Shown here: piece after piece, positions 2,521 through 44,553 of the stretch
How positions within the stretch are numbered: position 1 is the first letter of the stretch
Layout of the letters: every line of letters starts with the position of its first letter
From: Fodinibius roseus
Lineage (GTDB): Bacteria > Bacteroidota > Rhodothermia > Balneolales > Balneolaceae
Length of the DNA: 64,000 nt
NCBI RefSeq assembly: GCF_900129315.1
Contig: NZ_FQUS01000024.1
Location: forward strand, 1 to 64,000
Direction: 5' to 3'
Translations under genes and position numbers: made by a program
Notes under the pieces: generated by a model
Told to the model about the DNA's origin: nothing
Databases searched by the model: none
What the model saw: the letters and a program-made list of their open reading frames with translations, nothing else

Positions 2521-2587
2521 GAGTGCTGAAGGCTTCAGCAAATATCCTTTTCCCCATATTACTTCATCTTGGATGATTGGTCAATGA
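2259..2587 (+). pseudogene. Remnant of VKOR-thioredoxin gene (N-terminal domain only)
   Basis: Decayed third copy of the gene family at 6261 and 9084. Starting at the ATG of 2259, it matches the first roughly 80 residues of the 9084 protein. One extra base after codon 4 (CTAGTATTC against CTAGTTTC) throws it out of frame, and a second extra base near 2390 shifts it again. The later part reads cleanly in another frame, with EYLPNIEYPYLFWSDEIGG parallel to EYLNNIEYPYLLWPDENGG in the live copy. Similarity stops near 2520 and the VKOR and thioredoxin domains are gone. It cannot encode a working oxidoreductase. Confidence 0.8.
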
Positions 2588-6260: not shown

Positions 6261-7883
6261 ATGGAAAGAATAGTATATAAATACTTAGACTACTTGAAAA
6301 TCCCCCTATCTCATAATTTTTTTGTTGAGCTCCTTTTATCACATCCAGAATATCCTTCGTTATTAAGTATATCTGATGTATTAGAAAGGCTTGGGATCAA
6401 TCATAAAATCGTAAGGGTTGAGAAAAAAAATATCACAGACCTGGTGTTTCCATACTTGCTCCAACTTGACAAAAAAGGAGCAGAATTAAATTTAATAAAG
6501 AACCAGAAAGAACTAACATCTGCTGTTGAAACCGAGTCAGTGTATTGTCAATTTATAATATTAAAAGTAGAATCCACTGGTGTCATTGCTGACAAAGAAA
6601 ATGAAAAGTGGCGTTCTAAAGAGACTTTTCTTAAAATTCAATCAGCGATTTTTATTTCAGCCGCCATAGCACTTATTTTTTCAGCAAACATCAATTTTTT
6701 CTCTTGGATCCATGTACTATTACTCATCACTACTATGGGTGGTATTCTTGTTGGCTATTTGCTAATCGCTAAGGATCTTGGCATAAATTATGAGGTAGTG
6801 GAAGCTTTTTGCAAAGCAGGAAAAAATTCAAATTGTGATGAAATACTTAAGTCAGAAGATGCTAAACTATTTGGTAGGATAAGATTCTCAGATGCAGCCG
6901 TAAGCTTCTTTGTATTCCAGCTAATTGTTGTGGGATTGTTGATTCCATTACTTAATACTAATGGGGCTGCGTCTTTTTTATGGGTGTTATCTATATTCAG
7001 TACACTTTCAATCCCAATAATCGGGTATTCGATATATTATCAGTTTATAAGGGCAAGCTCGTGGTGTCGGTTGTGTATCATTGTAGATATGATTCTCGCT
7101 TTTCAAGTCGGTATATTTTCATATTTGTATTATGAGGGCATCATCCAGATGGGAGATGGAAATCTGCAGATATTTTTAGTGTCTATAATGCTATTTACAG
7201 TTATATCCTCATTTCTTCTTTTAATAAAAGCAAATATAATGAAAGACGAGGAATCTATTCAAGCAGGAATAAAAGCCAAACGAATTAAAAACTCCATTAC
7301 TGTATTTTCTCACTTACTTTTTCAGGAAAAGAGAGTGGAAATATCCTCTTTTGATGATAAGGAGCTTTTCGTGGGTGATCCGAATGCGCCTTTAAAAATA
7401 ATCGTAGCAAGTGATTTGTACTGTAAACCATGCAAGATACAGCATGAAAAAGCGAAACAATTGGTAGCCGCTTATCCAGAGAAGGCATGCATAATTATTC
7501 GACTACAATCTAGACAAGATGATAACCGAGCAGCCAGATATATTTTTCAATATTGGTTAAATAATATTTATGGTGAAGCTGATGAATCATCTCAAATCAA
7601 TAAGTTGTTACACGATTGGTATAACGGAATGGATATAGAAAAATTTATGAATCATTATCAATTAGATAATAGTGTTGGGAATAAAGTAAATGAAAATTTT
7701 GTAGTCAAACATACAGAATGGTTTAGGCAGGAACAAATCTATGCAACACCTACATTTTTTATTAATGGTTATAAATTACCTGCAAATTATAATATAGCGG
7801 ACATGATGGCATTAATTCCAAGTGTGGTTGAGCTATTCCAAAATAAAGAGAAATCATGCTTGCAAAATCTTGCATCACAATAA
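6261..7883 (+). CDS. C39-like / VKOR / DsbA-like thioredoxin fusion, unit 1
   Basis: A 540-aa membrane protein predicted to make disulfide bonds in an exported peptide. Residues 1-95 resemble the C39 peptidase fold (SHPEYPSLLSISDVLERLGI) but lack the CGP catalytic cysteine block. Residues 125-325 are a VKOR domain with about five membrane helices; the loop pair is C184/C192 (FCKAGKNSNC) and the quinone-side pair is CRLC at 269-272. Residues 365-525 are a thioredoxin domain with CKPC (388-391) and the cis-proline loop YATPTFFING (494-503). The natural reading is that the thioredoxin oxidises substrate, VKOR re-oxidises it and electrons go to quinone. The Cys-rich precursor begins 127 bp downstream. 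The ATG aligns with the start chosen for the 9084 paralogue. The protein is about 45% similar by eye to that copy, so the duplication is old. Confidence 0.9.
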   Translation: MERIVYKYLDYLKIPLSHNFFVELLLSHPEYPSLLSISDVLERLGINHKIVRVEKKNITDLVFPYLLQLDKKGAELNLIKNQKELTSAVETESVYCQFIILKVESTGVIADKENEKWRSKETFLKIQSAIFISAAIALIFSANINFFSWIHVLLLITTMGGILVGYLLIAKDLGINYEVVEAFCKAGKNSNCDEILKSEDAKLFGRIRFSDAAVSFFVFQLIVVGLLIPLLNTNGAASFLWVLSIFSTLSIPIIGYSIYYQFIRASSWCRLCIIVDMILAFQVGIFSYLYYEGIIQMGDGNLQIFLVSIMLFTVISSFLLLIKANIMKDEESIQAGIKAKRIKNSITVFSHLLFQEKRVEISSFDDKELFVGDPNAPLKIIVASDLYCKPCKIQHEKAKQLVAAYPEKACIIIRLQSRQDDNRAARYIFQYWLNNIYGEADESSQINKLLHDWYNGMDIEKFMNHYQLDNSVGNKVNENFVVKHTEWFRQEQIYATPTFFINGYKLPANYNIADMMALIPSVVELFQNKEKSCLQNLASQ

Positions 7884-8010
7884 AAGCAGCAATTGGCCAA
7901 ATGTGGCTATAAGGTTGTTTACTTGCTTGGGAGACAGAGGCCCTTAAACAAGATCTGTGCCTCGCCACTAATGGCAAAACAGGTTTTAACAAAAATCAAA
8001 GGTAAATATT

Positions 8011-8187
8011 ATGAAGAAAAAAAACTTCGAAACCGCACTTAGTCGCAATGAAATGAAAAGTATTTTGGCGGGAAGTGGTGAAAACTGTATTTGTTATTGT
8101 GCAGACTGGGCTGTTTGTTGCCAATGTTTAAATGGGTCATGTCATGGCTGTCAGACTCAATCAATGTGCAATTTTCTTTGCAGTTGA
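8011..8187 (+). CDS. Cys-rich double-glycine-leader peptide precursor 1 (58 aa)
   Basis: A 58-aa peptide with a leader and a core. The leader (residues 1-21) starts MKKKNFETALSRNEMK and ends ILAG, matching the Bacteroidota GG-leader pattern L-x(2)-EM-x(2)-IL-(G/A)-G read by C39 exporters; cleavage is expected after AG or the following SG. The core of about 36 residues holds ten cysteines (26, 28, 30, 36, 37, 39, 44, 47, 53, 57), enough for five disulfides, and ends in CS. It lies between the VKOR-thioredoxin gene and the remnant region. The second precursor at 10855 shares the EMKxxxAGSG junction but not the core. The likely product is a secreted, disulfide-stapled peptide such as a bacteriocin or signal. 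Start chosen because the leader begins there and no earlier in-frame ATG precedes it. Confidence 0.85.
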   Translation: MKKKNFETALSRNEMKSILAGSGENCICYCADWAVCCQCLNGSCHGCQTQSMCNFLCS

Positions 8188-8283
8188 GCACTTAATATTT
8201 TTTGGAGTTTATCTACACTGATAAACTCTTATGAAATATGTGTTTAACCAACAATATTCTGGTGGAGCACTACAAAAAAGTTT

Positions 8284-8590
8284 AGCTTGCTGATCGCGAT
8301 CATGGCCGTAGTGCTCATCAGAATCCCATTCAACGAGCTCATTGCTACATCAACAAGGAGCCCTGAATGGTGGACATCGTTTGAAGAGCTCCTTCGACAA
8401 GGACAAGATAAACCACGACTATTTATAATCCATCTGGCGGGTCAACGACCAGTGGATCGCAGATAAGCCGCTGGTATGTATCTACAAGGTCGGAGCGAAC
8501 TTTGGCTTTTTGGTTTAGCTCATACTGTGCTCGATGTTCTTGTAAATAGCACTCTCCATAAATCGGTCTTTGTTGGACAATTTAGTTTTT
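8284..8590 (+). pseudogene. Degenerate small membrane protein, unrecognised
   Basis: Protein-like sequence spread over two plus frames. One frame reads LLIAIMAVVLIRIPFNELIA, then EWWTSFEELLRQGQDK, and breaks near 8445. A neighbouring frame then gives IWRVNDQWIADKPLVCIYKV followed by a hydrophobic stretch (FGFLV, LILCSMFL) interrupted by stops. Together they look like a membrane protein with one N-terminal and one C-terminal helix that has suffered frameshifts. I cannot name the family. It lies just downstream of precursor 1, so it may once have been an immunity or accessory protein of that unit, but that is guesswork. Confidence 0.35.
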
Positions 8591-8594
8591 CATA

Positions 8595-8847
8595 GTGGTC
8601 ACTCACGTTATGTATCGTAATAAGCGTGGCAAAGTCTATCTTGCTGATCCGGCCAAAGGAAAAAGTGACCTTCCCGAAAAAATATTTTCTGAAACATTGG
8701 TTAAATGCAAAGACGAAAGGTGTATATACCGGTATTGCCCCTTCGACGGTGAAAACCCGTCGTCAAAATATCTGCGGTGAATTGGGGTTGAGAGGGCCGA
8801 ATGCTTTGATGTGGTGGGCTATTGAAAAAAAGAGGCAACTGGTTTAA
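8595..8847 (+). pseudogene. Chimera: C39 exporter fragment joined to HTH fragment
   Basis: The left part (about 8600-8738) is a piece of a C39 peptidase ABC exporter. It parallels 12812-12935 of the live exporter gene: RGKVYLADPAKGKSDLPEK against RGKVYIADPAKGKVALSKN, then a frameshift in an A-run, then YFLKHWLNAKTKGVYTGIA. From GGTATTGC (8731-8738) onward the sequence is the HTH gene instead (GIAPSTVKTRRQNICGELGL and so on to the stop at 8847). The 8-nt string GGTATTGC is present at the matching place in both parents (1914-1921 and 12928-12935). The open frame 8626-8847 (73 codons) lacks the first HTH helices and the peptidase active site, so it is unlikely to function. Confidence 0.8.
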
Positions 8848-9335
8848 AGGCAATGATTTAGCCCAAATAAAGTAAACGCAAGAGGTAAAATACTACTCCT
8901 TTGGGTGTAAAACAACCCCCCTTTGGAGGTATTGACAATAGCGAAAAAAATAGACAACCTGCTAAACAGATGGTGGTTTATGGTTTTTGAGGGGATAGAT
9001 GAAATACCCCGTTTAAACATTGCTTGGTTGATAGTGATAGGGAGCCATCGGGAAAATTAAAAATAACTCATTTGGCTTGCGTTATGGAGCATCTAGTTTC
9101 AAAATACCTGAAGGATATCAACCTTCCCATCTCCAGAAATTATTGCGAGAAGCTCATTGCCTCCCACCCGGATTATCCTTCGATGCTAAGCATTGCCGAT
9201 ACGCTGCAGCGGCTGGGGATCCGTTATAAAACAGCACGCATAGAAAAAGAATATCTTAACAATATAGAATATCCTTACCTACTCTGGCCTGATGAAAACG
9301 GCGGAGAACCAAAGATCGTCAGAGACGAGCAGGAT
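8731..9335 (+). repeat. Long direct repeat, copy 2
   Basis: Partner of 1914-2520, about 6.8 kb away in the same orientation. It covers the HTH 3' end, the conserved non-coding spacer (about 8848-9083) and the 5' end of the live VKOR-thioredoxin gene. Relative to copy 1 it has an insertion of roughly 20 bp near 8971 (TGGTGGTTTATGG). Recombination between the copies would delete or duplicate the first peptide unit. Confidence 0.8.
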
Positions 9336-10766
9336 TTACTTGGCAATGGTACGCAGGCCCCGGATAACACAGAGACCGAAAGGCCCGCCATTGTACTGAA
9401 GGCCGAACCGACTGACACGATTACCGATGAGGAAAACAACCGGCAGCGCTCGCAGGATCGTTTTCTCCGCTTACTAACGGTTGTGCTGGTTGTGGCCGTA
9501 GGCGGACTTATCTTCCTGAATATACTACCCTCATTCACTTGGGTATATACGTCGCTATCACTTACAGCTCTTGCTGGTACGGTTGTTGGATATCTGTTCA
9601 TTGCTAAAGATGTGGGCATCAGCTACAAACCGGTTGAAGCCTTTTGCCGGGCTGGGAAAAAGACCAACTGTGATGCACTGTTGAACTCAGAGGCAGCCCG
9701 GCTGTTCGGAGATAAGGTATCCTTTTCGGATGCCACGGCCAGCTATTTTCTCTTTCAGCTCCTTGCAATTGGGTTCTTATTCCCGCTAGGAGAAGCTTCT
9801 TTTTTATGGATATTAGCTGTATTAAGTGTACTTACCATTCCCATCATCGGCTATTCGCTTTGGTACCAGGCGGTTGAGGCAAAAACTTGGTGCCGGTTGT
9901 GCCTGGTTGTGGATGTGATCCTAACTATCCAGGCAGGGTTTTTCGGCTATTTGTATTATGATAGTCTGGCAGGAACCGGATATCCTACTCCCATCCCCAT
10001 TGCTGTTGCGCTGCTACTTTTTGGGGCTGTTGGCAGTGCTGTGTTGCTGTTGAAACACAAGGTCAAGGTCGATAACCGGTCCGAACAGGCTGAAATCGTG
10101 GCTAACCGTATCAAAAATTCTCCGGAAGTTTTTATGCATTTGCTTCGCCGGGGAAAGCGCGTTGATACTACGCCATTTGAGCAGGAGCTATTCATTGGAA
10201 ATCCTGATGCCACAATAAAAATTCTCATGGCTGCTAGCTTGGGCTGTGGACCCTGTAAGGAAGGATTTGAAAAAGCCCTGCAACTGGTATCTGTATATTC
10301 TTATAATGTAAATCTGACTATTCGATTGCGGACGGGTGGGGGCGGGAATAACAGAGATGTTAAACCTGGCATAGCTTTGTTGGGATATTGGCAACAATAT
10401 ATCCATGGAAAACCGGATGCATCGGAGCGCACCGAACACTTGATCCGGGATTGGTATAAACTAAAGGATCTGGAGGAATTCAGCAGGCAATATCCTGTGG
10501 ATGTGGATATGGACAAAAGAAATAACGGAAGCAGCGATCAGCTGGAAGACCAGCATGCCCAATGGATGGAACGGGAGGATATTTCAGCTACGCCTGCTTT
10601 TTTTATTAATAGTTATCAGCTGCCGAAACAGTATAGCATAGAGGATCTAATGGGCATTTTGCCCTGTCTTACTGATCAGATAAAACGACAAGAAATAAGA
10701 CAAAAGATATTGGAACCAAATAAAAAAATTGTCCCGACTGTTACTGGTGGGGACAACAGGGGTTGA
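9084..10766 (+). CDS. C39-like / VKOR / DsbA-like thioredoxin fusion, unit 2
   Basis: Second disulfide-forming membrane protein, 560 aa from the ATG at 9084. An in-frame TTG at 9024 would add 20 residues, but the ATG aligns with the first residue of the 6261 paralogue and the added part is repeat spacer. Domains run as in unit 1: C39-like N-terminus without the catalytic cysteine (SHPDYPSMLSIADTLQRLGI, 28-47); VKOR with C188/C196 (FCRAGKKTNC) and CRLC at 270-273; thioredoxin with CGPC (388-391) and cis-Pro loop ISATPAFFINS. GC content is higher than in unit 1, and divergence is about as large as between separate orthologues. The precursor 10855 follows after 88 bp. Expected role: oxidising the cysteines of that precursor in the periplasm. 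Confidence 0.9.
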   Translation: MEHLVSKYLKDINLPISRNYCEKLIASHPDYPSMLSIADTLQRLGIRYKTARIEKEYLNNIEYPYLLWPDENGGEPKIVRDEQDLLGNGTQAPDNTETERPAIVLKAEPTDTITDEENNRQRSQDRFLRLLTVVLVVAVGGLIFLNILPSFTWVYTSLSLTALAGTVVGYLFIAKDVGISYKPVEAFCRAGKKTNCDALLNSEAARLFGDKVSFSDATASYFLFQLLAIGFLFPLGEASFLWILAVLSVLTIPIIGYSLWYQAVEAKTWCRLCLVVDVILTIQAGFFGYLYYDSLAGTGYPTPIPIAVALLLFGAVGSAVLLLKHKVKVDNRSEQAEIVANRIKNSPEVFMHLLRRGKRVDTTPFEQELFIGNPDATIKILMAASLGCGPCKEGFEKALQLVSVYSYNVNLTIRLRTGGGGNNRDVKPGIALLGYWQQYIHGKPDASERTEHLIRDWYKLKDLEEFSRQYPVDVDMDKRNNGSSDQLEDQHAQWMEREDISATPAFFINSYQLPKQYSIEDLMGILPCLTDQIKRQEIRQKILEPNKKIVPTVTGGDNRG

Positions 10767-10854
10767 TATGGTTTGTCCCCACTGCTGGGTCGGTATTTCG
10801 ATCGATTTCCCGCGGATAACACAAGCCCAAACTGTTAACTAAACGGAGACCGTT

Positions 10855-11052
10855 ATGAAGAAAGAAAGCTTTAATTTTACCAATTTTGACCCGCTTGATC
10901 GTTCGGAAATGAAAAGACTGATGGCGGGAAGTGGTAATATATATTGTAACACTGGTGGTAATACATGGCCTTGTTATCATGCAACTTTAACTGAATGCAC
11001 TGATATTTGCGCGGATATTGGCTCTTGCGAGGGATGTGCTCAATTTCCTTAA
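10855..11052 (+). CDS. Cys-rich double-glycine-leader peptide precursor 2 (65 aa)
   Basis: A 65-aa peptide starting at an ATG eight bases after a GGAG ribosome-binding-like motif. The leader (residues 1-25) ends LDRSEMKRLMAG, the same GG-type junction as precursor 1, followed by SG. The core of about 40 residues carries six cysteines (31, 40, 48, 52, 58, 61), enough for three disulfides, with Gly, Thr and aromatic residues between them (TGGNTWPCYH). Thr and Ser residues in the core (T33, T37, T44, T46, T49, S57) would be possible glycosylation sites for the transferase at 17401. A perfect 32-bp palindrome 69 bp downstream probably ends most transcripts, leaving limited read-through into the export genes. 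Confidence 0.85.
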   Translation: MKKESFNFTNFDPLDRSEMKRLMAGSGNIYCNTGGNTWPCYHATLTECTDICADIGSCEGCAQFP

Positions 11053-11121
11053 TCACACATCATGCTATAATTTTATATAGCTATTCATAGCAAAGTCTAA
11101 TATAAGTAGTTACTCAATCTG

Positions 11122-11153
11122 TAACCCTCATCCACTGCAGTGGATGAGGGTTA
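11122..11153 (+). terminator. Perfect 32-bp palindrome after precursor 2
   Basis: Positions 11122-11137 and 11138-11153 are exact reverse complements with no spacer; the arm is TAACCCTCATCCACTG. As RNA it forms a stem of about 14 bp with a tetraloop. The tail is AT-rich (TTAAAAGTTTTATG) without a pure T run. Its place between a precursor gene and the exporter genes suggests partial termination, giving abundant precursor mRNA and less transporter mRNA. A palindrome this exact could also be a protein-binding site. Confidence 0.65.
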
Positions 11154-11315
11154 TTAAAAGTTTTATGAGATTACTGCTTAAGATCTGAAAAACTATACAG
11201 CACTTTAATGGTATAAAAAGAATTTACCTAAGACTTAAATTCCTGTTTTGTTAGATGGAAATATTCAAAACGTTGGTCCAGTAGGGTTTGACTAATCATA
11301 TCATTCGGACATCAT
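11154..11315. other. Spacer before the propeller lipoprotein gene
   Basis: AT-rich 160-bp gap after the palindrome. It may hold a second promoter for the propeller-exporter operon, but no motif stands out. Confidence 0.35.
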
Positions 11316-12503
11316 ATGAAACAATGGTTTCTTCTACTTTTTATAATCATCGTTATTTGGGGATGTTCACTTCAAGAAAAGGACCAACTCCCCAAACGGC
11401 TTCAGAAACTGAAAAATCTAACTGTCTATTCGGCGAACGAAAAACCCAGAGAAGTTATATCGTTCAAGAAAAATACTGTTTATGGCGATTCTAAAAAGGT
11501 TTTAATTGGAAGTATGGGTGATATAGCCGTGGATAGTTTGGGGCGGGTTTTTATTGTCGACGTACAAAACCAGGCAATTCATGTCTTTCAACCCGATGGT
11601 CAGTTTATAGCGCAATTTGGAAGAGAAGGCAAGGGGCCAAGTGAATTTGGTTTTATCAAAAGTTTGCAAATCCGTAAGAATCGTTTATACGCCTTTGACT
11701 CTAAGCAACAAAAAGTAAGTATATTTATGCTCGATACACTGGCTGGCGATAAAACAATTTTACTTGCCCAAAATAGAGGGAAGTATCAGGCACTACAGAG
11801 AGCTTATCCCTCGATAGACAAATTATATGTGAGGAATAATAATACCTATGTTGCCGAATTTATCTTAGATAGTTCTCCAAAAAAAATAAAATGGCAAAAT
11901 TTTGAAACAAAAGGCTTGTGTTACCTCTTAGGAAATACTGGGAAAATAGTATCCAAGAAACTGATTGATTTAAAGAAAGCTACACGTACGCTATTTGCCT
12001 GGCCCAATTCGGAAGCGTTATTAGGTTTACACCTGAAACCCTTTTTTGGAAACGCATTGACCGTCCTTTCAAGTGACAATAGTATTTACTGGGCTGGACC
12101 AGATTATTTTTTAATCAAAATTTATAGTCCTGATGGAGCATATCAGGATGCGTTTTATTATCCACATAAGAAAATACCTTTGACAAGAGAATCCGCTATT
12201 GAAGCCGGAATTCGTGATCTATATATCAGGAACATGGAATCCATGGATCTTCCCCGAACCTGGCCGGTTCTTACAGAAATGAAAATCGACGATCAAGACC
12301 GGCTATGGATCGCCACGACGGTAGAAGATATGCATGTTTATGAATGGTGGGTGCTTGAAAATACCGGGGAACTATTAGCAAAATTTAGTTGGTCGCGAAA
12401 AGAACCCATAGAAGAGATTAAAAATGGATACATGTACACACGTGAAACCGTTGAGGAAACCGGCCTGCAGCAGATTATACGGTACCGGATCGAAATGAAT
12501 TAA
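11316..12503 (+). CDS. 6-bladed beta-propeller lipoprotein
   Basis: A 395-aa lipoprotein. The signal peptide is hydrophobic and ends in the lipobox IIWGC-like segment (VIWGCS, Cys17). The mature protein carries NHL-type propeller blades: a clear blade motif is IAVDSLGRVFIVDVQNQAIH, then VFQPDGQFIAQFGREGKGPS, and a late one is MKIDDQDRLWIATTVEDMHV. Proteins of this kind are common in Bacteroidota and Balneolota, often beside peptide-secretion genes, with no fixed function known. It sits 19 bp upstream of the exporter, so it is almost certainly co-transcribed. Possible roles are binding of the mature peptide at the cell surface, immunity or a structural part of the export route; none can be read from sequence. 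Confidence 0.8.
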   Translation: MKQWFLLLFIIIVIWGCSLQEKDQLPKRLQKLKNLTVYSANEKPREVISFKKNTVYGDSKKVLIGSMGDIAVDSLGRVFIVDVQNQAIHVFQPDGQFIAQFGREGKGPSEFGFIKSLQIRKNRLYAFDSKQQKVSIFMLDTLAGDKTILLAQNRGKYQALQRAYPSIDKLYVRNNNTYVAEFILDSSPKKIKWQNFETKGLCYLLGNTGKIVSKKLIDLKKATRTLFAWPNSEALLGLHLKPFFGNALTVLSSDNSIYWAGPDYFLIKIYSPDGAYQDAFYYPHKKIPLTRESAIEAGIRDLYIRNMESMDLPRTWPVLTEMKIDDQDRLWIATTVEDMHVYEWWVLENTGELLAKFSWSRKEPIEEIKNGYMYTRETVEETGLQQIIRYRIEMN

Positions 12504-12522
12504 AATAGCTATATACGTTAAC

Positions 12523-14721
12523 ATGTTTTTTGCGAGTACTTTCAAAACCTACCGTCAGTACGATGCCATGGACTGCGGCCCCACCTGCTTGCGTATGGTG
12601 GCCCGCCATTACGGGCGAAGCTATACGATGGAAACACTACGTAACCGGAGCGGTATCAATCGCGAGGGCGTATCCCTGCTGGGCATCAGCGAAGCGGCTG
12701 AAAGCATCGGTTTCCGTACGGTGGGCGCCAAGATTACCTGGCAGCAGCTGAAGAAGCAGGCTCCGCTACCCTGTATCGTGTACTGGGATCAGGAGCACTT
12801 CGTGGTGGTGTATCGGATTAAGCGTGGCAAAGTATATATAGCCGATCCGGCCAAGGGAAAGGTAGCCTTATCAAAAAATGACTTTCTGCAACATTGGTTG
12901 AATGCAAAGTCGAATGGTGAACGTACCGGTATTGCGCTTTTGTTGCACACCACACCCAAATTTTATGAGTTGGATGATGAAAAATCGGGACAAATAAGTT
13001 TCAGCCTGCTGGCCCGGTATGTCATGCCATACAAAGACCTGTTATTTCAACTGGCGTTGGGGCTGGCGGCCGGCAGCATCCTGCAGCTTATTTTCCCATT
13101 TCTTACCCAAGCGGTGGTAGACATTGGAATCCAAACCCGCGATCTGAATTTTATCTACATTATTCTGGTCGCACAGATCATGCTCTTTGCGGGTCGCACG
13201 GGGGTGGAGTTTATCCGTTCGTGGATTCTGCTGCATATGAGCACACGTATCAATATTTCTATCTTGTCTGATTTTCTGATCAAACTGATGAAGTTGCCGA
13301 TGGCATTTTTTGATACGAAGATGACGGGCGACATTATGCAGCGGATGGAGGATCACCGACGGATCCAGGACTTCCTGACAAATCAGACTCTCAGCACCTT
13401 GTTTTCTATTATGAATTTATTGGTGTTTTCCTTAGTACTGGCCTACTATCACATGCTTATTTTTGTGGTATTTCTGGTCGCCAGCACCCTGTATGTGGGG
13501 TGGGTGCTGTTATTCCTGAAGAAACGCAGGGAACTGGACTACCAGCGGTTCGGTATCTCCTCCAGCGATCAAAGTAAGATTATTCAACTCATTCAGGGTA
13601 TGCAGTCCATTAAGCTTAACACCTGTGAACGCCAAAAACGCTGGGAGTGGGAGCGGCTGCAGGCCCGGCTGTTCCGCTATAAAATAAGAAACCTTTCTCT
13701 GGAACAATATCAACAGGGAGGAGCCTTTTTTATTAATGAGGGCAAGAATATCGGAATTACTTTCCTGGCAGCTGTGGCAGTGGTACAGGGCCAGCTTACC
13801 TTAGGAGCGATGATGGCCATTCAATATATCATCGGACAGCTCAACAGCCCGGTCGAGCAGCTTATCGGTTTTGTTCGATCGACCCAGGATGCCTATCTGA
13901 GTATGGAGCGGCTGAACGAGGTCCATAAGCAGAAAGATGAAGAACCGGTGAAGAAAACCCTAACCCACCAGCTGCCAGAAACCAGAGATCTCACAATAGA
14001 CAATCTGACTTTCACATATCCGGGAGCAGGCAATGAGCCGGTATTAAAGAATATAAACCTGCAGATTCCGGAGGGAAAGACCACGGCGCTGGTCGGCATG
14101 AGTGGATGCGGAAAGACCACGCTGCTGAAACTGCTGCTCAAGTTTTATGATCCCGATAAGGGAAAGATACTGCTGGGTAAACGCAACTTGGATCTAATCA
14201 GCCATCGCGCCTGGCGGCGGCACTGTGGTGTGGTCATGCAAGATGGATATCTGTTTTCTGACGACATCGCCAGTAATATTGCCGTAGGTAAGGAGCAGCC
14301 GGACCTGGAAAAGCTGGAGGAGGCTGTTACGGTTGCAAATATCAGGGATTTCATAGATTCTCTCCCTCTGGGATACAATACCAAAATCGGATCGGAAGGT
14401 AACGGCGTCAGCGAGGGTCAAAAGCAGCGGATTCTCATCGCTCGTGCAGTCTATAAAGAGCCCGAGTTTATCTTTTTTGACGAAGCCACTAACGCCTTGG
14501 ATGCCAATAATGAACGGAAGATTATGAAAAACTTGCAGCATTTTTTTAAAAACCGAACAGTAGTCGTTGTAGCCCACCGCCTCAGTACAGTGAAGAACGC
14601 CGATAATATTGTAGTACTTGATGATGGAATAATAACTGAACAGGGAACCCACAGTGAACTGATCCATTCAGAGGGGGCGTATTTCGATCTGGTGGAGAAT
14701 CAATTGGAGTTAGGCTCGTAG
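12523..14721 (+). CDS. C39 peptidase-containing ABC exporter
   Basis: A 732-aa bacteriocin-type exporter that would cut the leader after its AG/GG end and pump the core out. Residues 1-150 are the C39 peptidase with catalytic C18 in MDCGPTC, H92 in EHFVVVY and D108 in ADPAKG. Residues 165-440 hold six membrane helices. The C-terminal ATPase has Walker A GMSGCGKTT, signature VSEGQKQR, Walker B FIFFDEATNALD and the H-loop VAHRLST. All catalytic parts are intact. It is followed after 5 bp by the HlyD adaptor. A broken piece of a related exporter gene lies at 8600-8738. This is the only live exporter in the locus and would have to serve both precursors. Confidence 0.95.
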   Translation: MFFASTFKTYRQYDAMDCGPTCLRMVARHYGRSYTMETLRNRSGINREGVSLLGISEAAESIGFRTVGAKITWQQLKKQAPLPCIVYWDQEHFVVVYRIKRGKVYIADPAKGKVALSKNDFLQHWLNAKSNGERTGIALLLHTTPKFYELDDEKSGQISFSLLARYVMPYKDLLFQLALGLAAGSILQLIFPFLTQAVVDIGIQTRDLNFIYIILVAQIMLFAGRTGVEFIRSWILLHMSTRINISILSDFLIKLMKLPMAFFDTKMTGDIMQRMEDHRRIQDFLTNQTLSTLFSIMNLLVFSLVLAYYHMLIFVVFLVASTLYVGWVLLFLKKRRELDYQRFGISSSDQSKIIQLIQGMQSIKLNTCERQKRWEWERLQARLFRYKIRNLSLEQYQQGGAFFINEGKNIGITFLAAVAVVQGQLTLGAMMAIQYIIGQLNSPVEQLIGFVRSTQDAYLSMERLNEVHKQKDEEPVKKTLTHQLPETRDLTIDNLTFTYPGAGNEPVLKNINLQIPEGKTTALVGMSGCGKTTLLKLLLKFYDPDKGKILLGKRNLDLISHRAWRRHCGVVMQDGYLFSDDIASNIAVGKEQPDLEKLEEAVTVANIRDFIDSLPLGYNTKIGSEGNGVSEGQKQRILIARAVYKEPEFIFFDEATNALDANNERKIMKNLQHFFKNRTVVVVAHRLSTVKNADNIVVLDDGIITEQGTHSELIHSEGAYFDLVENQLELGS

Positions 14722-14726
14722 TCCAA

Positions 14727-16067
14727 ATGGAAGAACTGACAATAAATAATCCAAGTACAAACGGAGATCCGGAAGCGTCGGAGCATACTGATTGGTCTGA
14801 ATTGGACGTCCGTAGCGCTGAGGTGCAGGAGATCATCGGCCGTCCACCGCACTGGCTGGTGAGATGGGGAATTACTGCCTTTTTCGGAGTGTTGATGCTG
14901 GTTTTGCTGTCGGCCTGGGCGATAAAATACCCGGAAGCTATTAACGCTCCCATACGAGTAACGGCCATTGATGCTCCCAAAACACTTGAAAGTAAAATAA
15001 ATGGTAAACTGGTCCGGTTGCTAATAGAAAATGACCGTCATGTGGAAGAGGGAGAGGTCTTGGCCTGGTTGGAAAGTACCGCCAGTCACCGGCAAATAAT
15101 GGAACTTTCTGCGCAGGTCAACAGCATGCGCACTTGGCTTATTGATGGACAGTTACATCAGTTTAGGGCGGTTCATTTAGATGGTTATTCGGACCTTGGA
15201 GAACTGCAGAACGATTTTCAGAGCTTTGAGCAAACATGGCGTGAGTTTGTTTCGTACCTGCCTGGTGGTTTTTACCATCAGAAACAGGATATCTTGGAGC
15301 AGGAAATGGAATATACCCGTCAACTTCTGGAAAGACTCAGAGAACAGAAGCAAATTCAGGAGGAAGACTACCAACTGGCCCAGCAGGAATACAACAGGCA
15401 AAAAACGTTGGCAGATAAAGGACTGGCAGCTCCTGCGGAGATGGCGAAGGTCGAAAGCAATCTGCTTGGCCGCCGCTTGCCTCTGCAGCAGACTGAGTCT
15501 GCAATCATCAGCAATAAAGCCGATCAAACAGCCAAGCAACAGCAATTGATGGAGCTTGAAAAGCAGATTGCTGAACAGCAAGCTATATTCCTACAGGCAC
15601 TAAACACCCTGAAAAGTACTATAGAGGAATGGAAGGAACAATATCTATTGGAAGCGCCGGTCTCCGGGCAGATAATCTACGCCGGGATTCTACAGGAAAA
15701 TCAGACGCTCAGGACTGGACAAGAGATCTTTTATATCCAGCCTGAGAACACACAATTTTTTGGAGAAATGACGGTTTCTCAGAACTCTTTCGGAAAGATC
15801 CGAGAAGATCAGCGGGTGCTGATTCGTTTTAGCGGCTACCCGCATCAGGAGTTCGGTTCGGTCCCCGGGCGAATTGATTACCTTTCCAGTATCCCAGTCA
15901 GAGATAGCGTTTTTTTTGCTAAAGTCCGCTTTCCTGAGGGATTCTCCACCAACTACGGCAGAGAGCTGACTCCGACTGACGGGATGCGGGGACAGGCAGA
16001 GATCATCACTCAGGACATGCGGTTGTTGGAGCGGGTATATAACAACATTATGAGTCAACTGAAATAA
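14727..16067 (+). CDS. HlyD-family periplasmic adaptor
   Basis: A 446-aa membrane fusion protein linking the exporter to an outer-membrane channel. A cytoplasmic N-terminus (about 45 residues) leads into one membrane helix (about 46-72, WLVRWGITAFFGVLMLVLLS). A first half-lipoyl stretch follows (KINGKLVRLLIENDRHVEEG), then a long Gln/Glu-rich coiled coil (about 185-295), then the second half-lipoyl part (LEAPVSGQIIYAG) and a beta barrel. The start lies 5 bp after the exporter stop, so translation is probably coupled. No TolC-like gene is in the locus; a general one elsewhere would be needed. Confidence 0.9.
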   Translation: MEELTINNPSTNGDPEASEHTDWSELDVRSAEVQEIIGRPPHWLVRWGITAFFGVLMLVLLSAWAIKYPEAINAPIRVTAIDAPKTLESKINGKLVRLLIENDRHVEEGEVLAWLESTASHRQIMELSAQVNSMRTWLIDGQLHQFRAVHLDGYSDLGELQNDFQSFEQTWREFVSYLPGGFYHQKQDILEQEMEYTRQLLERLREQKQIQEEDYQLAQQEYNRQKTLADKGLAAPAEMAKVESNLLGRRLPLQQTESAIISNKADQTAKQQQLMELEKQIAEQQAIFLQALNTLKSTIEEWKEQYLLEAPVSGQIIYAGILQENQTLRTGQEIFYIQPENTQFFGEMTVSQNSFGKIREDQRVLIRFSGYPHQEFGSVPGRIDYLSSIPVRDSVFFAKVRFPEGFSTNYGRELTPTDGMRGQAEIITQDMRLLERVYNNIMSQLK

Positions 16068-16126
16068 TAAAGGCTAACTTGTTGAGTGTAAGAATAACAA
16101 CAGTAGGTTAAAATTTACATCAAAAA

Positions 16127-17251
16127 ATGAGGCAAATGGATATCGAGCTGATAAAAGATACAGGGGATCCGATAAAAAGGGATATGGTTATTGAAAAAAC
16201 CAAGGTCATTAATGACATATTGATGCAGGCTGCCCCTGCCATGAACAACATGGGGTTACTTAATGGAAAATTGGGGATAAGCATCTACTTCTTTCACTTT
16301 GCCAAAGTAACTGGTAGTAAAAAACATCATCAATTAGCCCAGCGACTATTTGATGAGGTTTATGAGGGACTAAGCAGGAATGGTATTCCAGTAAATTTTG
16401 AAGATGGATTAGCCGGAATAGCGTTGGGGATTGAGTATTTGGCTCAAAATGGATTTGTCAACACAGATACTGATGATATTTTTTCAAAGACAGACAATAG
16501 AATATATCGGCATATAGTTGCCAATGACCAGCTGCCAATAGGAATCTTGGAAGGAGCTATGGGATCTCTGTTATATGTTCTATCGCGCTTGTCAAAGCAG
16601 GATATTCAAACAGAAGACCCAAGTACATTTGTCTTTAGAAGGTTGTTAATCAGACTTGTAAATCACATTGGAGAAAGGGTGGAAGAGAGAAAATATAGTG
16701 TTCAGGAGCCATTGATGTTCGATGTTTCCTGGGATCTTCCCCTTTGCCTGATACTGCTTGGCAAAGTCAGAGAAATGGACATTTATAGTTATAAAATAAA
16801 CCATATAATAGATCATCTTTCTCCTGTAGTTTTATCACTTTATCCTCGGTTGTCGAGTAATCGACTATATCTGTTGCTCGGAATAGAAAGTATTCTACAA
16901 CAGATTGATCTGCCAGAGTGGCAAAATCATGCTACTCTGTTAAAACAGAATATAGCAATGGATGAAATTTTGGAAGAAGAATTAAGAGATAAAAGCCTTC
17001 ATCTAATGCATGGAGCCGCGGGTGTGGATTTAGTAAGCCGGCAATTGCATCAGTTAATCCAGGTAGATCGATTGTTATTTAATCGTGAGCAGCTGATAGA
17101 AAAGATTATTTATTCTGAATATTGGGAAAAAATTGAACAAAATGAAATAGAAAGCAGAAGCTTAGGCTTGTTGTTTTATGGACTTACAGGGGTAGGATTA
17201 CATCTGTTAACATTGTTAGAAGGCTTTGAAAAACCCAGTCTGCCATTTTAA
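16127..17251 (+). CDS. LanC-like protein without visible zinc ligands
   Basis: A 374-aa protein of the LanC-like alpha/alpha toroid type found in Bacteroidota peptide loci. Repeated Gly-rich turns between helices support the fold: LLNGKLGISIYFFHF (about 43-57), NFEDGLAGIALGIEYL (about 87-102), GILEGAMGSLLYVL, LMHGAAGVDLV (near 290) and GLTGVGLHLLTLL (near 355). True cyclases bind zinc through a Cys in a WCxG motif and a Cys-His pair in CHG. Here the first motif cannot be found and the second reads MHG, so the Cys is missing. No dehydratase is present. It therefore more likely serves as a peptide-binding scaffold or an altered enzyme than as a lanthionine synthetase. The gene is 60 bp after the adaptor, same strand. 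Confidence 0.7.
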   Translation: MRQMDIELIKDTGDPIKRDMVIEKTKVINDILMQAAPAMNNMGLLNGKLGISIYFFHFAKVTGSKKHHQLAQRLFDEVYEGLSRNGIPVNFEDGLAGIALGIEYLAQNGFVNTDTDDIFSKTDNRIYRHIVANDQLPIGILEGAMGSLLYVLSRLSKQDIQTEDPSTFVFRRLLIRLVNHIGERVEERKYSVQEPLMFDVSWDLPLCLILLGKVREMDIYSYKINHIIDHLSPVVLSLYPRLSSNRLYLLLGIESILQQIDLPEWQNHATLLKQNIAMDEILEEELRDKSLHLMHGAAGVDLVSRQLHQLIQVDRLLFNREQLIEKIIYSEYWEKIEQNEIESRSLGLLFYGLTGVGLHLLTLLEGFEKPSLPF

Positions 17252-17400
17252 ACATAACTAAAGAATCTCACTTTAGAAGCAATAACTCTATATAGTAAGA
17301 TTGTTCTATAGGCACAGAATGATAGATTTTATAGTTTTTTAAATATTCTGTCAAAAGACCATATGAATTTACACAATCAAGATCAAACTGGTAACTAATC

Positions 17401-18186
17401 ATGGACAATAAAACAGATTTACAAGATGTCACTTTTCTATTTCGGTTAAAGGTTGACTCCATCGAGCGTTTGGAGAATATATTAATGGTTATTGATTTTA
17501 TATCCCATCATTTTGATACAAATATTTACGTGTTGGAAGCTGCAAATTATAATAATAGTATAGTTCGTAAGCTTCTGCCTCAAAAAGTGTCCTATCATTT
17601 TGTGGAAGATTATGACCCTATTTTACATCAGACAAAATACATCAACAAGGCGGTTGAAAACTGCCGTACTCCCTATCTTGCAGTTTGGGATACAGATGTA
17701 ATTATAGATCCGGGACAAATAATGATGTCAGTGGAATGGCTGCGCCAAGATGAAGCAGATTTTGTTTCTCCCTATAAAGATAAGGCTTTGGATACGACCC
17801 ATATTATACGAGAATTATATTTTAAGACAAGAGATCTTAGAATCCTGAAGGATAACAAAGGAAAAATGAAAGAACTGTATGCTCCCAATCCTGTCGGGGG
17901 TGGATTTTTTGCCAATAGAGACAAATACGTACAATCCGGGATTGAAAATGAATATTTTTACGGCTGGGGAAGAGCGGATGGAGAGCGAATAAACAGATGG
18001 AAAATATTGGGACACCGATATAAACGAGTTTCCGGCCCTTTATTTCATCTTACCCATGGGAGAGGAATAAGCAGTAAGTTTCATTCGCCCCGCCAAGATG
18101 ATATTAAGTTTTCGGAAGTCCTTCGTATTTATACAATGTCAAAAGGCGAACTGGAAGAGGAAGTTAAAACGTGGGGAGATAATTAG
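17401..18186 (+). CDS. GT-A glycosyltransferase in the peptide locus
   Basis: A 261-aa cytoplasmic transferase related to the galactosyltransferase/GT2 fold. The metal-binding DxD is at 97-99 (LAVWDTDVII). It is followed by a GGGFFANRDKYVQSGIENEY segment and YGWGRADGERINRW, where the Trp-Gly and acidic residues match the acceptor-side E/D-x-D block of Glyco_transf_7C proteins. No membrane helix is visible. It ends the same-strand run that starts with the precursors. Glycocin loci (sublancin, glycocin F) pair a GT2 enzyme that sugars Cys or Ser with thioredoxin-type proteins and a C39 exporter, so peptide glycosylation is the attractive idea. A role in cell-envelope sugar is the plain alternative. 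Confidence 0.75.
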   Translation: MDNKTDLQDVTFLFRLKVDSIERLENILMVIDFISHHFDTNIYVLEAANYNNSIVRKLLPQKVSYHFVEDYDPILHQTKYINKAVENCRTPYLAVWDTDVIIDPGQIMMSVEWLRQDEADFVSPYKDKALDTTHIIRELYFKTRDLRILKDNKGKMKELYAPNPVGGGFFANRDKYVQSGIENEYFYGWGRADGERINRWKILGHRYKRVSGPLFHLTHGRGISSKFHSPRQDDIKFSEVLRIYTMSKGELEEEVKTWGDN

Positions 18187-18280
18187 ATCGTCAATCTAAT
18201 TTTATAGAAACACAGCGGTTGAAAGAGGACTGGAAAGAAAATTTTGGGATGATAGGATATTATTTCAACTCAGGTGAAAA
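18187..18280. other. Junction between AT-rich peptide locus and GC-rich carbohydrate locus
   Basis: Short AT-rich gap. Immediately after it, base composition and codon use become much more GC-rich and stay so. A 21-codon frame ending at 18285 (LKEDWKENFGMIGYYFNSGE) looks protein-like and may be the tail of a lost gene. Confidence 0.4.
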
Positions 18281-19543
18281 GTGATTAAAAAAAGGATTAT
18301 ACTTTTAAGCAATAATTCAAGCTGGTGCTGGTTCCAAGATGAGCGGGTCCTACTGGACGGGGATCAGCTGCTATTTTCCGGGGTGACCTCGGAGGGAGCG
18401 AATACCGTCTCCAGCTATAATATAGCCACCGGGGAAAAGCAGACCGTCGTGCTGAATGATACCACCTTTCAGCCGGACGACCACAATGTGGGCGTGCTGC
18501 TCAAGCGGCCGGACGGTCGGTACCTGACCGTCTATGCCGGTCACGGGGTGGATACCAAAATGCGGTATCGTATCTCATCCAGCCCGGGCGATATCAGCGA
18601 GTGGGGACTAGAACAAACAGCGAATACTAAGGGTGGAACCACTTATTCAAATGTGTATCATTTATGCAAGGAAGGAAAGATCTATAATTTTCACCGGGGG
18701 ATTGGATGGAACCCTAATTACATGGTATCGGAGGATGAGGGAGAATCCTGGCGGTACGGGGGACAGCTGCTGGCGCATCCGGGCCGCCCTTATATACAAT
18801 ATGCTTCTGATAATTGGTCCCGTATCCATTTTATCATGACAGAAGCCCATCCACGCAATTACAACAACAGTATCTACCACGGGTACACCGATGGCGAGCA
18901 GGTATATGGGTCCGGCGGGCAGGCTCTCGGCCCGCTGAGCGGGAAGGAGTCCACGGACCTGAAACCCTACGATTTCACCACGGTGTTCGACGGGGATTCC
19001 ACCACCCGGGCGGATGTGGCCTGGACCAGCGACATTGAGCTGGATGGGGAGGGCCGCCCGTATGTTGCTTTTTCGGTGACCAAAGATCCTATTGCACTTG
19101 GCGAACGAGAACAGACGGACAAAGCGGGATTCGATCACCGGTATCATTATGCTCGCTGGGACGGGGAGCAGTGGCAGGAGCATGAGATTGCCTATGCCGG
19201 CAGCCGGCTGTACCCGGGGGAGAATGAATACACGGGACTGATTACCCTGCACCCGGACGACCCGAATGTGGTGTATATCTCCGCGGATGTGGACCCGGCG
19301 ACCGGGGAGGAGCTGAATCCCGGGGGTCCCCGCCGCTATGAAATATTCCGGGGCACCACCAGCGACCGGGGGGCGAGCTGGGAGTGGACCCCCGTCACGG
19401 AAAATTCCGACCAGGATAATATCCGTCCCGTCGTCGTAAGCAATGAACGCTACGAGGCCGTCCTGTGGCTCAATGGCCGGTATACGACCTATACGGATTA
19501 TGATCTGGACGTATTGGGGATTGTTCGGGAGCGGGAGGATTAG
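18281..19543 (+). CDS. BNR-4 repeat protein, possible polysaccharide lyase
   Basis: A 420-aa beta-propeller of the BNR_4 family. The diagnostic opening SSWCWFQDERVLLDGDQLLF (about 13-32) is followed by DDHNVGVLLKRPDGRYLTVY and HG, then further blades (VSEDEGESWRYGG, ELDGEGRPYVAFSV, TSDRGASWEWTPV). Family members include PL24/PL25 ulvan lyases and several uncharacterised secreted enzymes. This one has no signal peptide: the family core begins only a dozen residues after the GTG start, so the N-terminal export signal may have been lost at the locus junction. It is alone before a 550-bp gap and SusC. If still exported or expressed it would act on the polymer imported by SusCD. Confidence 0.75.
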   Translation: MIKKRIILLSNNSSWCWFQDERVLLDGDQLLFSGVTSEGANTVSSYNIATGEKQTVVLNDTTFQPDDHNVGVLLKRPDGRYLTVYAGHGVDTKMRYRISSSPGDISEWGLEQTANTKGGTTYSNVYHLCKEGKIYNFHRGIGWNPNYMVSEDEGESWRYGGQLLAHPGRPYIQYASDNWSRIHFIMTEAHPRNYNNSIYHGYTDGEQVYGSGGQALGPLSGKESTDLKPYDFTTVFDGDSTTRADVAWTSDIELDGEGRPYVAFSVTKDPIALGEREQTDKAGFDHRYHYARWDGEQWQEHEIAYAGSRLYPGENEYTGLITLHPDDPNVVYISADVDPATGEELNPGGPRRYEIFRGTTSDRGASWEWTPVTENSDQDNIRPVVVSNERYEAVLWLNGRYTTYTDYDLDVLGIVRERED

Positions 19544-20095: not shown

Positions 20096-23000
20096 ATGAA
20101 ACATTTCTACAAAAAGGTGATCAACAGGATCCTATGTATGTTTGCAGCCGGTCTGATGTTGTTGGGACTGGCAGGTTCTGCATATGCACAGCAGACGGTT
20201 ACGGGAACGGTGACCGATGCTGAAACCGGGGAAACGCTCCCGGGCGTGAACGTAACTGTCCCGGGAAGTACGCAGGGGACGGCAACGAATCTTGACGGGG
20301 AATACAGCCTGGAGGTATCGGGACCTGAGACCGTGTTGCGATTTTCTTTTGTGGGATACCGGTCCCAGGAAATCACGGTCGGAGAACAGGAAGTCATCGA
20401 TGTAAGCCTTCAGCTGGACATGGGAAGGCTGGATGAAGTTATCGTGGTCGGATACGGGACGAGGGAACGGCAGGACCTGACCGGGTCCGTGGACCGCGTA
20501 GACGGTGAGAAATTCCGGGATCAGGGAATAACCAATGTTTCTGATATGCTGACCGGTACAATTGCCGGCTTTAACGCCAGTCAGGGTGCAACGGCCAGTG
20601 GCGAGACGAGCTTCCAAATCAGGGGACCAAATTCTTTGACGGCTGATACGGATCCGTTGATTGTGCTGGACGGGGTCATCTACCGGGGCGATTTGCGGAA
20701 TATTAATCCCAATGACATTGAATCCATTGACGTTCTGAAAGATGCCAGTTCGGCCGCGGTATATGGGGCACGAGCTGCCAACGGTGTTGTCATGATTACC
20801 ACGACACGGGGACAGTCGGGCAAGCCCACGATCGAATTCAGTACCAAATTCGGGTTGACGGAGACCACCACCGATCATTACAAGTACCGGGGACCCGAGG
20901 AATATATTTCGTTCAGGCAGGACTATTACCGCTCGCAGGGATTGAGTCAGCCGGACCACTACTGGTCGCGGCCCGATAATTTGCCAGAAGGGGTCAGCAC
21001 CGATGAGTGGCGTTCGCTCAATGAAAATCCTCTTTCGGACAACCAGGAGGAGTGGATGAGCCGGATGAACTTCTTTCCGCTCGAGCGAGAGCAGTACCTG
21101 GCGGGCGACACGTTTGACTGGGCGGATTATATTTACCCGACCGGCTTTCAGCAGGATGCGAATTTAAGTATTTCCGGCGGTTCCGATGATGTGCAGTACT
21201 ACTGGTCGATCGGCCGGGTGGATAATGAAGGCGTCAGGCTTGGCGATCAGTTCGAGGCGATACGGACAAGACTGAATGTGGATTTCCAGGTAACCGACTG
21301 GTTAAGCGCGGGTATTAATGCGGAGTATTCGGACCGCGACGAGAGTACGATCCCTGCCGGTGATCCGCATCTGATGAGTCCTTTTTCCCGTCTGTATGAC
21401 GAACAGGGGAATGTGGAGTGGTATCCGCACGGTTATATTGTGACCAATCCCGCACTCAATACGATCAATGCAGAGCGAAAACGGAAAATAAACAACCTCT
21501 TTGCGTCCCCGTTTCTGGAAGTTGCGCTTCCGTACGGTTTTACGCACCGGGTGACTTTCCAGCCCCGCTACCGGACGTTTAAAGACTATCAATTTTGGGG
21601 AGAGAATACGCGGACCGGCGGAGAGATCGTTTCCGGGGGACGCGCGGACCGGGAGGACGAGACTCGCTTCGACTGGATGCTCACCAATATGCTGACCTGG
21701 CAAAAAGAGTATGGCGTGCACGATTTCAACGTGACGCTGGTGCATGAGGTGGAAGAGAACCAATCATGGGAAAGCTTTCAGCGTAATACCGGATTTCGTC
21801 CCTCCGCAAACCTCGGATACGGCGGACTGCAGTACGGAACCAACCCTTTCCTGCAAACGGAGGATGTTAAAACGACCGGGGAGGGGATGCTGGCCCGGCT
21901 GAACTACACGCTGATGGATAAATACCTGTTTACGGCCTCCGTACGACGAGACGGCTATTCCGCTTTTGGCCAGCAGAACCCCAGGGCGGTGTTTCCGGGC
22001 GGCGCCTTTGCGTGGCAGATTTCTGAGGAGGATTTCTTTACTTCCGATTTGATCAGCAACCTGAAGGTAAGGTTATCCTACGGACAAAACGGTAACCGGA
22101 GCATTGGGACCTACTCCTCTCTTGCCCAACTGGGTACGAACCTGTATTACGACGGATCCCAGGTGCAGGTGGGGGTCCAAACCAGCTCCCTGGCCAATCC
22201 AGGATTGCGCTGGGAAGAAACCGAGTCCTTTAATGTAGGCCTGGATTTCGGGATCATGGACGGCCGCATCAGCGGTAGCCTCGACTATTATGACATGACG
22301 ACGGAGAGCCTGCTGGTTGACCGGACGCTGCCGCTGCTTACCGGTTTTGACGGGGTGACTACCAATATCGGGGAGTTGGGCAACAAGGGGTTCGAGTTTA
22401 CCGTAAATACGGTGAATATCAGCTCCGGAGATCTGAACTGGCAATCGAACCTGAATTTTTCCCTGAACCGCAATGAGATCAAGTCGCTGTTCGGGGACAC
22501 CGGGACCTATACGTTAGAGGGACAGCAATACGAGGGAGAGCTTCCGGACTATTCCAACAACTGGTTCCCGGGTAAGTCCATCGACGTGATCTGGGACTAT
22601 GATATTCAGGGCATGTGGCAGGTGGAAGAGGCGGAAGCAGCCGAAGAATACAACCTGAGTCCGGGTGATATCAAAGCCGTTGACGTCAATGATGACGGAA
22701 CGTATCAATCGCAGGACGACAAGCGTTTCATCGGTTATACCGAGCCGCGATACCGGTTCGGGTTCCGGAATGACGTATCGTATAAAAACTTTTCCGCTTC
22801 GGTCTTTATTCGTGCTAACCTGGGGCATAAACTTCCGTTTGAAGATGCGATCCACTCGCATTCGACGTATGACCGGCGGAACACGCCGCCCACGCCTTAT
22901 TGGACAAAAGAGAACCGGTCGAATGAATGGCCGCGGACCTCGCTGACCGACGATCCGTTCGGCGGGGGCATCATGATGTATAAAAAAGCCTCCTTTGTAC

Positions 23001-44529: not shown

Positions 44530-44553
44530 AACCATTATCCATATCTATCAGTT

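Follow-up and report, generated by a model that had tools for sequence, protein, structure and literature searches.

A C39-like/VKOR/DsbA-like fusion as a candidate dedicated oxidase for exported cysteine-rich peptides in Fodinibius roseus and other Bacteroidota

We analysed the first 64,000 nucleotides (hereafter 'the window') of contig NZ_FQUS01000024.1 (C10 in our numbering of contigs) of Fodinibius roseus, a bacterium with a genome of 5.08 Mb whose relatives are Balneolaceae. Positions 6261 to 18186 hold a series of genes, all on the + strand, that a preliminary description, made from the sequence alone, had proposed to be a new type of locus for disulfide-rich, possibly glycosylated, secreted peptides. 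All genes named there are present as called (Table 1). They comprise two fusions of a vitamin K epoxide reductase (VKOR) domain with a thioredoxin domain, two cysteine-rich peptide genes that begin 128 nt (peptide 1) and 89 nt (peptide 2) past a fusion gene, one intact exporter with a C39 peptidase domain, an HlyD-type adaptor, a LanC-like protein and a glycosyltransferase (GT). A second C39 exporter has been reduced to a remnant. The inventory had overlooked the beta-propeller gene and a decayed duplicate further upstream. In a Pfam scan of ten window proteins (6261-19543), the matches to VKOR, Thioredoxin_4, Peptidase_C39, ABC_tran, HlyD_3 and LANC_like all exceed the Pfam cut-off, and the GT scores 22.8 bits against Glycos_transf_2, just below the cut-off of 23.3. 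The two fusions share 42-43% identity, and the alignment of copy 2 begins at the ATG at 9084, not at the TTG at 9024.

Table 1. Features of the peptide locus and its surroundings in the window.
Feature	Position	Strand	Evidence
Decayed duplicate of ~8731-9348; its second half (2274-2525) corresponds to the start of a fusion gene	~1914-2525	+	sequence comparison
C39-like/VKOR/DsbA-like thioredoxin fusion, copy 1 (540 aa)	6261-7883	+	Pfam VKOR, Thioredoxin_4; structure model
Precursor peptide 1, 58 aa	8011-8187	+	GG-type leader ending AG, 37-aa core, 10 Cys
Broken-frame remnant of a second C39 exporter	8556-8693	+	weak PF03412 match (E 0.139), 2 stops
C39-like/VKOR/thioredoxin fusion, copy 2 (560 aa from ATG)	9084-10766	+	Pfam VKOR, Thioredoxin_4
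Precursor peptide 2, 65 aa	10855-11052	+	GG-type leader ending AG, 40-aa core, 6 Cys
Six-bladed beta-propeller with lipobox-like N terminus	11316-12503	+	PF17170 DUF5128 (4.3e-13)
C39 peptidase-ABC exporter, 732 aa, DCGPTC motif intact	12523-14721	+	PF03412 (2.1e-36); ABC_tran; alignment
HlyD-type adaptor	14727-16067	+	HlyD_3, PF13437 (4.9e-10)
LanC-like protein without Cys ligands, accessory	16127-17251	+	LANC_like PF05147 (1.7e-12)
GT-A-type glycosyltransferase, accessory, paired with LanC-like protein	17401-18186	+	Glycos_transf_2 below cut-off; conserved motifs

Peptide 1 carries ...SRNEMKSILAGSG and peptide 2 carries ...DRSEMKRLMAGSG. Both are small precursors with a GG-type leader beside a C39-ABC exporter whose catalytic motif is intact, which is the arrangement of GG-leader peptides exported by C39 transporters. 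When the leader pattern is combined with a minimum of four cysteines, these are the only two open reading frames (ORFs) retrieved from the whole window, compared with none in 60 first-order Markov windows, and removing the cysteine filter still yields only these two. A search of NCBIfam with both peptides returned a single match, of peptide 1 to leader_Chryseo, and it is below threshold (15.3 versus 23.5 bits). A match of peptide 2 to the Pfam family Imm12 is likewise below threshold (17.4 versus 25 bits), and we took it as chance. By eye, cores resembling that of peptide 2 occur at two other loci (L041 and L074 in our numbering of loci).

Full pairing of the cysteines into disulfides predicts that their number should be even. 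This is the case for the cores of 51 of the 58 distinct leader-bearing peptides that we collected (p 1.2e-9), and for 51 of the 55 with cores of at least 20 residues. Because related sequences are not independent, parity was also counted over similarity clusters, where 34 of 38 representatives have an even number (p 3e-7). All 14 peptides that adjoin a fusion in the second of the two locus sets described below are even as well.

The preliminary description recognized the fusions as VKOR-thioredoxin proteins, and the Pfam matches agree, but it overlooked a further domain at their N terminus. In copy 1, a C39-like domain (residues ~1-110) is followed by an extra hydrophobic helix (~126-144), the VKOR core and a C-terminal DsbA-like thioredoxin domain. 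The redox cysteines are C184/C192 and C269-x-x-C272 in the VKOR core and C388-x-x-C391 in the thioredoxin domain, and the four VKOR cysteines are invariant across 19 fusion sequences. With a Pfam match above cut-off, a CxxC motif plus a loop cysteine pair, and the VKOR fold, the core belongs to the VKOR family. The predicted structure of copy 1 (predicted local distance difference test, pLDDT, 85.4; predicted template-modelling score, pTM, 0.71) aligns in its VKOR part with human VKOR (6wv7; Z 13.2, root-mean-square deviation (rmsd) 3.3, 139 aa) and Synechococcus VKOR (4nv2; Z 12.4, rmsd 2.7, 136 aa), and in its thioredoxin part with ScsC (5id4; Z 15.8, rmsd 2.8, 157 aa).

The first 114 residues of copy 1, folded alone (pLDDT 85.0), share the fold of a leader-bound C39 domain (6mpz_D; Z 9.5, rmsd 3.1, 105 aa aligned), and also of HlyB (8dck; Z 9.1), ComA (3k8u; Z 9.0) and an HlyB-type C39-like domain (3zua; Z 8.0). 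The top 15 rows of this structural re-alignment are all C39 or C39-like, and the first other row has a Z of 7.0. The 50 matches listed for re-alignment of the whole fusion include no C39 domain; C39 came out only with the N domain modelled by itself. At the level of sequence, 13 of 18 N domains give a PF03412 match at E<=10, the best at 1.9e-12, and the Emticicia and Parabacteroides fusions exceed the cut-off of this family. Two pattern checks found the C39-type catalytic cysteine motif in 0 of 48 fusion members, one of which is N-terminally cut; the exporters of fusion loci retain this motif. As the domain has the C39 fold and lacks the catalytic cysteine motif, we call it C39-like, that is, a degenerate C39 domain. 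The C39-like domain of HlyB also has no catalytic cysteine, and it binds without cutting. However, HlyB-type domains are joined to an ABC exporter, whereas the fusion's N domain is joined to an oxidase. In four annotated plasmid records, the fusion goes by the name 'vitamin K epoxide reductase family protein' alone, and nothing in the annotation points to its C39-like part.

Of the 244 genomes searched in the class, 15 have a relative of the fusion, two of them as fragments only; relatives also occur in 42 of 395 genomes sampled from the phylum and in 8 plasmid records. A contig search with 14 sequences located them in 20 loci of named genomes, including Cyclobacteriaceae and Flavobacteriaceae, and many of these genomes had already come up in the class-wide search. 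We then asked how often a cysteine-rich GG-leader peptide gene begins within 700 nt downstream of a fusion gene. The pooled answer is 32 of 52 fusion genes versus 12 of 236 unrelated genes. Split by locus set, the first gives 18 of 26 (at distances of 42-146 nt) versus 3 of 86, counting only genes of at least 200 aa with at least 700 nt of downstream sequence. These 26 leave aside short pieces of fusion genes (in L043, L044, L046, L078 and the window) but include two 5' halves of split genes (in L031 and L042), and L075 was excluded from this count and from those of cysteine parity and propellers, since it overlaps L033. The second set consists of 24 further loci, 20 from genomes and four from plasmids. 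With a looser leader pattern and at least two cysteines required, it gave 14 of 26 versus 9 of 150 (Fisher p 2e-8), with one of the 14 peptides starting 469 nt away. At three more fusions (L040, L063 and L064), we spotted by eye a downstream peptide that the pattern had missed. The preliminary description had staked its proposal on VKOR-thioredoxin genes being consistently next to small cysteine-rich GG-leader ORFs in other genomes, and these counts make the gene link stronger than was claimed there.

The exporter and the fusion also tend to occur together. Among the 244 genomes, 15 have the fusion, 19 have an exporter of over 50% identity, and 14 have both (hypergeometric p 8e-18). An ORF matching the exporter profile is found in 19 of the 24 second-set loci, although three of these matches have only 175, 250 and 508 aa and could be ABC proteins of another kind. 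A VKOR search of the F. roseus genome returned nothing besides the two fusions, and within the genus a VKOR match occurs in 4 of 12 genomes, which are the same four that hold the fusion.

The membrane orientation of the fusion determines where it could act. The extra helix before the VKOR core has a mean hydropathy of 2.05 over 48 sequences, and its presence places the C39-like and thioredoxin domains on one side of the membrane. In an alignment-based count of residues close to the membrane, that side, which also bears both VKOR cysteine pairs, is richer in lysine plus arginine (K+R) in all 48 fusions; in the core loops alone, K+R averages 7.3 on the redox side versus 0.44 on the opposite side. 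Ordinary VKORs of the same class have the reverse pattern in 13 of 13 cases. (These controls derive from 30 loci that yielded 15 ORFs. Two of these were dropped, one for being off-frame and the other a protein of 564 aa, leaving ten single-domain and three VKOR-thioredoxin-length proteins.) An alignment-free recount also finds more K+R on the redox side in 40 of 48 fusions. In the 34 proteins with six predicted transmembrane (TM) helices, the C39-like domain shares its side of the membrane with the CxxC motif, and 33 of them follow the charge pattern. Thus, while the redox cysteines of ordinary bacterial VKORs are on the K+R-poor side, those of the fusions are predicted not to be. Since positively charged residues are enriched on the redox side, the positive-inside rule predicts that this side is cytoplasmic and that the fusion is inverted in the membrane. 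A cytoplasmic location would suit the C39-like domain, because no other compartment should contain uncut leader.

The computed properties (linkage, even cysteine numbers, a C39-like fold without catalytic cysteine, VKOR and DsbA folds, and charge asymmetry) are consistent with the hypothesis, to which we assign a probability of roughly 60%, that the locus serves to mature and export disulfide-rich peptides, and that a dedicated, leader-guided oxidase forms disulfides on the cytoplasmic side before a C39 exporter cleaves and exports the product. From them we infer leader binding, quinone use, cytoplasmic oxidation and all roles of accessory proteins, as follows. Both peptides would be synthesized with their GG-type leader, which the catalytically dead C39-like domain of the fusion would bind. 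The DsbA-like domain would then introduce disulfides into the tethered core, and the VKOR core would hand the electrons to a membrane quinone. As the C39-like and thioredoxin domains and both pairs of VKOR cysteines are all predicted to face the cytoplasm, oxidation would precede export. The intact C39 exporter would cleave after AG and, together with HlyD, secrete the product. The LanC-like protein and the GT may attach a sugar in the cytoplasm, and the propeller lipoprotein may serve as an immunity or receptor partner. The earlier suggestion of disulfide-rich exported peptides with VKOR as their likely dedicated oxidant is supported, and the host, then described as Balneolota-like, is one of the Balneolaceae.

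Several observations weigh against this hypothesis. The domain assignment is not equally strong by all methods: the N domain of copy 1 has no Pfam match by itself, a profile-profile comparison between the fusions' N domain and the exporters' C39 domain is weak (probability 26.7, E 7e-4, 42 columns), and the best Foldseek E value for the N domain is only 6.5e-3 (ComA). With regard to linkage, the pattern picks up no peptide after 20 of the 52 fusion genes. True positional exceptions are L035, where the peptide is upstream, and L060 and L061, where it belongs to an adjacent exporter operon of opposite strand. Five of the 19 genomes with the exporter (G071, G126, G235, G236 and G237) lack the fusion. 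The preliminary description had named exporter operons without these genes as a sign of a chance cluster; what the five genomes show is that the unit is not obligate. The predicted orientation depends on the positive-inside rule; six TM helices are predicted in just 34 of the 48 fusions, and the alignment-free recount gives one tie and seven lower values (six in proteins with five predicted TM helices, one with six). Finally, TlpA-type thioredoxin motifs are present in 12 of the 24 second-set loci, where a motif anywhere in the locus was counted and Pfam confirmed a thioredoxin only for proteins of L057, L131 and L132. TlpA-type thioredoxins are usually periplasmic, which hints that some thiol chemistry also takes place outside the cytoplasm.

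The main rival of an inverted oxidase is accordingly a dedicated oxidase in the ordinary orientation, whose VKOR and thioredoxin domains would oxidize the peptide in the periplasm after its release, with the C39-like domain docking onto the exporter or a leader remnant. The frequent TlpA-like motifs and the seven dissenting fusions of the alignment-free count favour such an enzyme, and the adjacency and even-cysteine data are equally compatible with it. There is also precedent, in that bacterial VKOR-DsbA fusions, known in Synechococcus and Clostridium sp., act in periplasmic folding according to the accessible part of PMC12453122. The F. roseus fusion resembles these in having a VKOR core with two cysteine pairs joined to a DsbA-like domain, but differs in its added C39-like domain, added TM helix, inverted charges and tie to peptide loci. 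On the other hand, the aligned K+R counts are opposite to those of ordinary VKORs without exception, and the extra TM helix would leave the C39-like domain on the periplasmic side, in which one would not expect an uncut leader. We therefore regard the periplasmic alternative as unlikely on balance, though a serious contender. As to whether a VKOR could act in the cytoplasm, a 2017 study by Hibender reportedly has the Aeropyrum pernix VKOR making disulfides in two subcellular compartments; going by the title alone, this would be a precedent.

A different possibility, compatible with oxidation by an inverted fusion, is that the locus makes a glycocin-like bacteriocin, in which the GT glycosylates Cys, Ser or Thr and the active product has both disulfides and a sugar. 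The preliminary description favoured this analogy. Glycocins such as sublancin, glycocin F and thermoglycocin do share with the window a C39 exporter (a peptidase-containing ATP-binding cassette transporter, PCAT), and their precursor is likewise rich in cysteine and accompanied by a GT and thioredoxin-like proteins, as far as the available portion of PMC12457901 describes them. The window's GT lies downstream of the exporter and has DTD and GWGR-x-DG motifs that are conserved in four sequences. GT and LanC-like protein also recur as a pair, in the window, L029, L062, L063, L075, L076 and L132. Glycocins differ, however, in that the locus described here has a C39-like/VKOR/DsbA fusion as its oxidase and an accessory GT, whose relatives in L029 and L132 match Glyco_transf_7C, and in that cysteine numbers are mostly even here; odd numbers, which would provide a free cysteine for S-glycosylation, are found in only 7 of 58 peptides. 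The GT is restricted to a minority of loci, with seven hidden Markov model matches among the 33 loci collected first, which include two selected by their LanC-like gene, and one in the 24 second-set loci. A sequence search of the Protein Data Bank (PDB) matched the GT to no solved structure at E<=0.1, with the glycocin enzyme SunS outside the comparison. LanC-like genes are present in 4 of 244 genomes, one as a short fragment. An alignment of six such LanC-like proteins contains no invariant cysteine, such that the LanC zinc ligands (C-gap-CH) are absent, and a sequence search of the PDB with the LanC-like protein gave no match. The LanC-like/GT pair is thus a rare accessory module, the glycocin analogy is weaker than first proposed, and a glycocin-like product is improbable, though not far-fetched.

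Two further explanations fare worse. That the locus is a chance cluster or a decaying, functionless remnant might be suggested by the decayed pieces at 1914-2525 and 8556-8693 and by the patchy distribution of the fusion, but two fusions, two peptides and the exporter are all intact and the linkage repeats in other genomes; the linkage counts rule out a chance cluster, and the explanation as a whole is very improbable. A lanthipeptide-type locus, with LanC forming thioether rings, has the LANC_like match and the L126 locus in its favour, but the probability is close to nil, and we ruled it out for the window locus, which has no LanC cysteine ligands and no dehydratase (LanB or LanM) among the ten proteins scanned.

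The other loci vary in their additional genes. In the first set, members of the propeller family are the commonest next gene, following 37 of 56 peptides, and of the 67 propeller ORFs that reach 340 aa or more, 46 have a lipobox-like cysteine. At least six propeller-like ORFs are arrayed beside an exporter or fusion fragment in L045 and L066, which belong to F. roseus itself (contig C25) and Fodinibius salsisoli. In other clades, TlpA-like thioredoxin motifs, DUF6734 proteins or other GTs are present; DUF6734 proteins recur in peptide loci L057, L060 and L130 (Pfam E 3e-87 to 3e-110). In L126, the fusion is accompanied by several GG peptides and, in place of the LanC-like/GT pair, by a LanC match over the full length and a LanB dehydratase of 1005 aa (Lant_dehydr_N, 1.1e-103); it is possibly a lanthipeptide locus in which the fusion has a use too. 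L131, on Emticicia plasmid pEMTOL01, places the system on a plasmid typed as conjugative, and the anti-phage protein KwaA is annotated there directly downstream of a TolC gene. L132 (NZ_OY725766.1, from the gut species Parabacteroides distasonis and named a plasmid) has a fusion, a 6-Cys peptide, a DUF4369/thioredoxin protein, a LanC-like protein, a galactosyltransferase-related gene, a GT and a C39 exporter, beside genes of housekeeping type, and the record may be a piece of chromosome.

Elsewhere in the window, the pieces shared by 1914-2525 and 8731-9348 are 77-90% identical and about 6.8 kb apart, and by eye the first part of the duplicate encodes a stretch resembling a LuxR-type helix-turn-helix. 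The remainder (18281-64000) resembles, as judged by eye from its ORFs, a region for carbohydrate use, with pairs of a large TonB-dependent receptor and a lipoprotein at 20096-25107 and 40990-46284 and a sulfatase-like ORF at 49990-51513. The ORF at 18281-19543 matches Pfam BNR_4.

Bacteroidales clusters for ribosomally synthesized and post-translationally modified peptides (RiPPs) have a similar setting, in that they contain C39 exporters, GG precursors, GTs and LanC-like proteins without zinc ligands, like the window (PMC10352776, in the portions available). Unlike the window, eight of nine selected clusters described there are based on radical-SAM enzymes, and the words epoxide, thioredoxin and disulfide are absent from its main text. 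Our search of open-access literature found no VKOR-C39 fusion and no VKOR tied to a GG-leader peptide. The system may thus be a variant of C39-exported disulfide peptides whose maturation enzyme is new in kind, and the earlier label of a candidate new type suits this enzyme better than it suits the peptide. More tentatively, and at somewhat less than even odds, the fusions would form a phylum-wide enzyme class in which an inverted VKOR and a leader-reading C39-like domain make disulfides in the cytoplasm, dependent on the leader and before export.

If this is true, disulfide formation in these peptides would depend on the leader and be guided by an enzyme, as other RiPP modifications are, rather than being a spontaneous process or a task of general periplasmic enzymes, and the fusion would offer a mechanism for substrate-specific disulfide formation. 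If the predicted orientation is also true, the system would be a self-contained means of making disulfide-rich peptides inside the reducing cytoplasm, with a use in peptide production. The combination of fusion and peptide gene provides a genetic handle for finding secreted peptides of Bacteroidota, including those of one locus in Parabacteroides distasonis.

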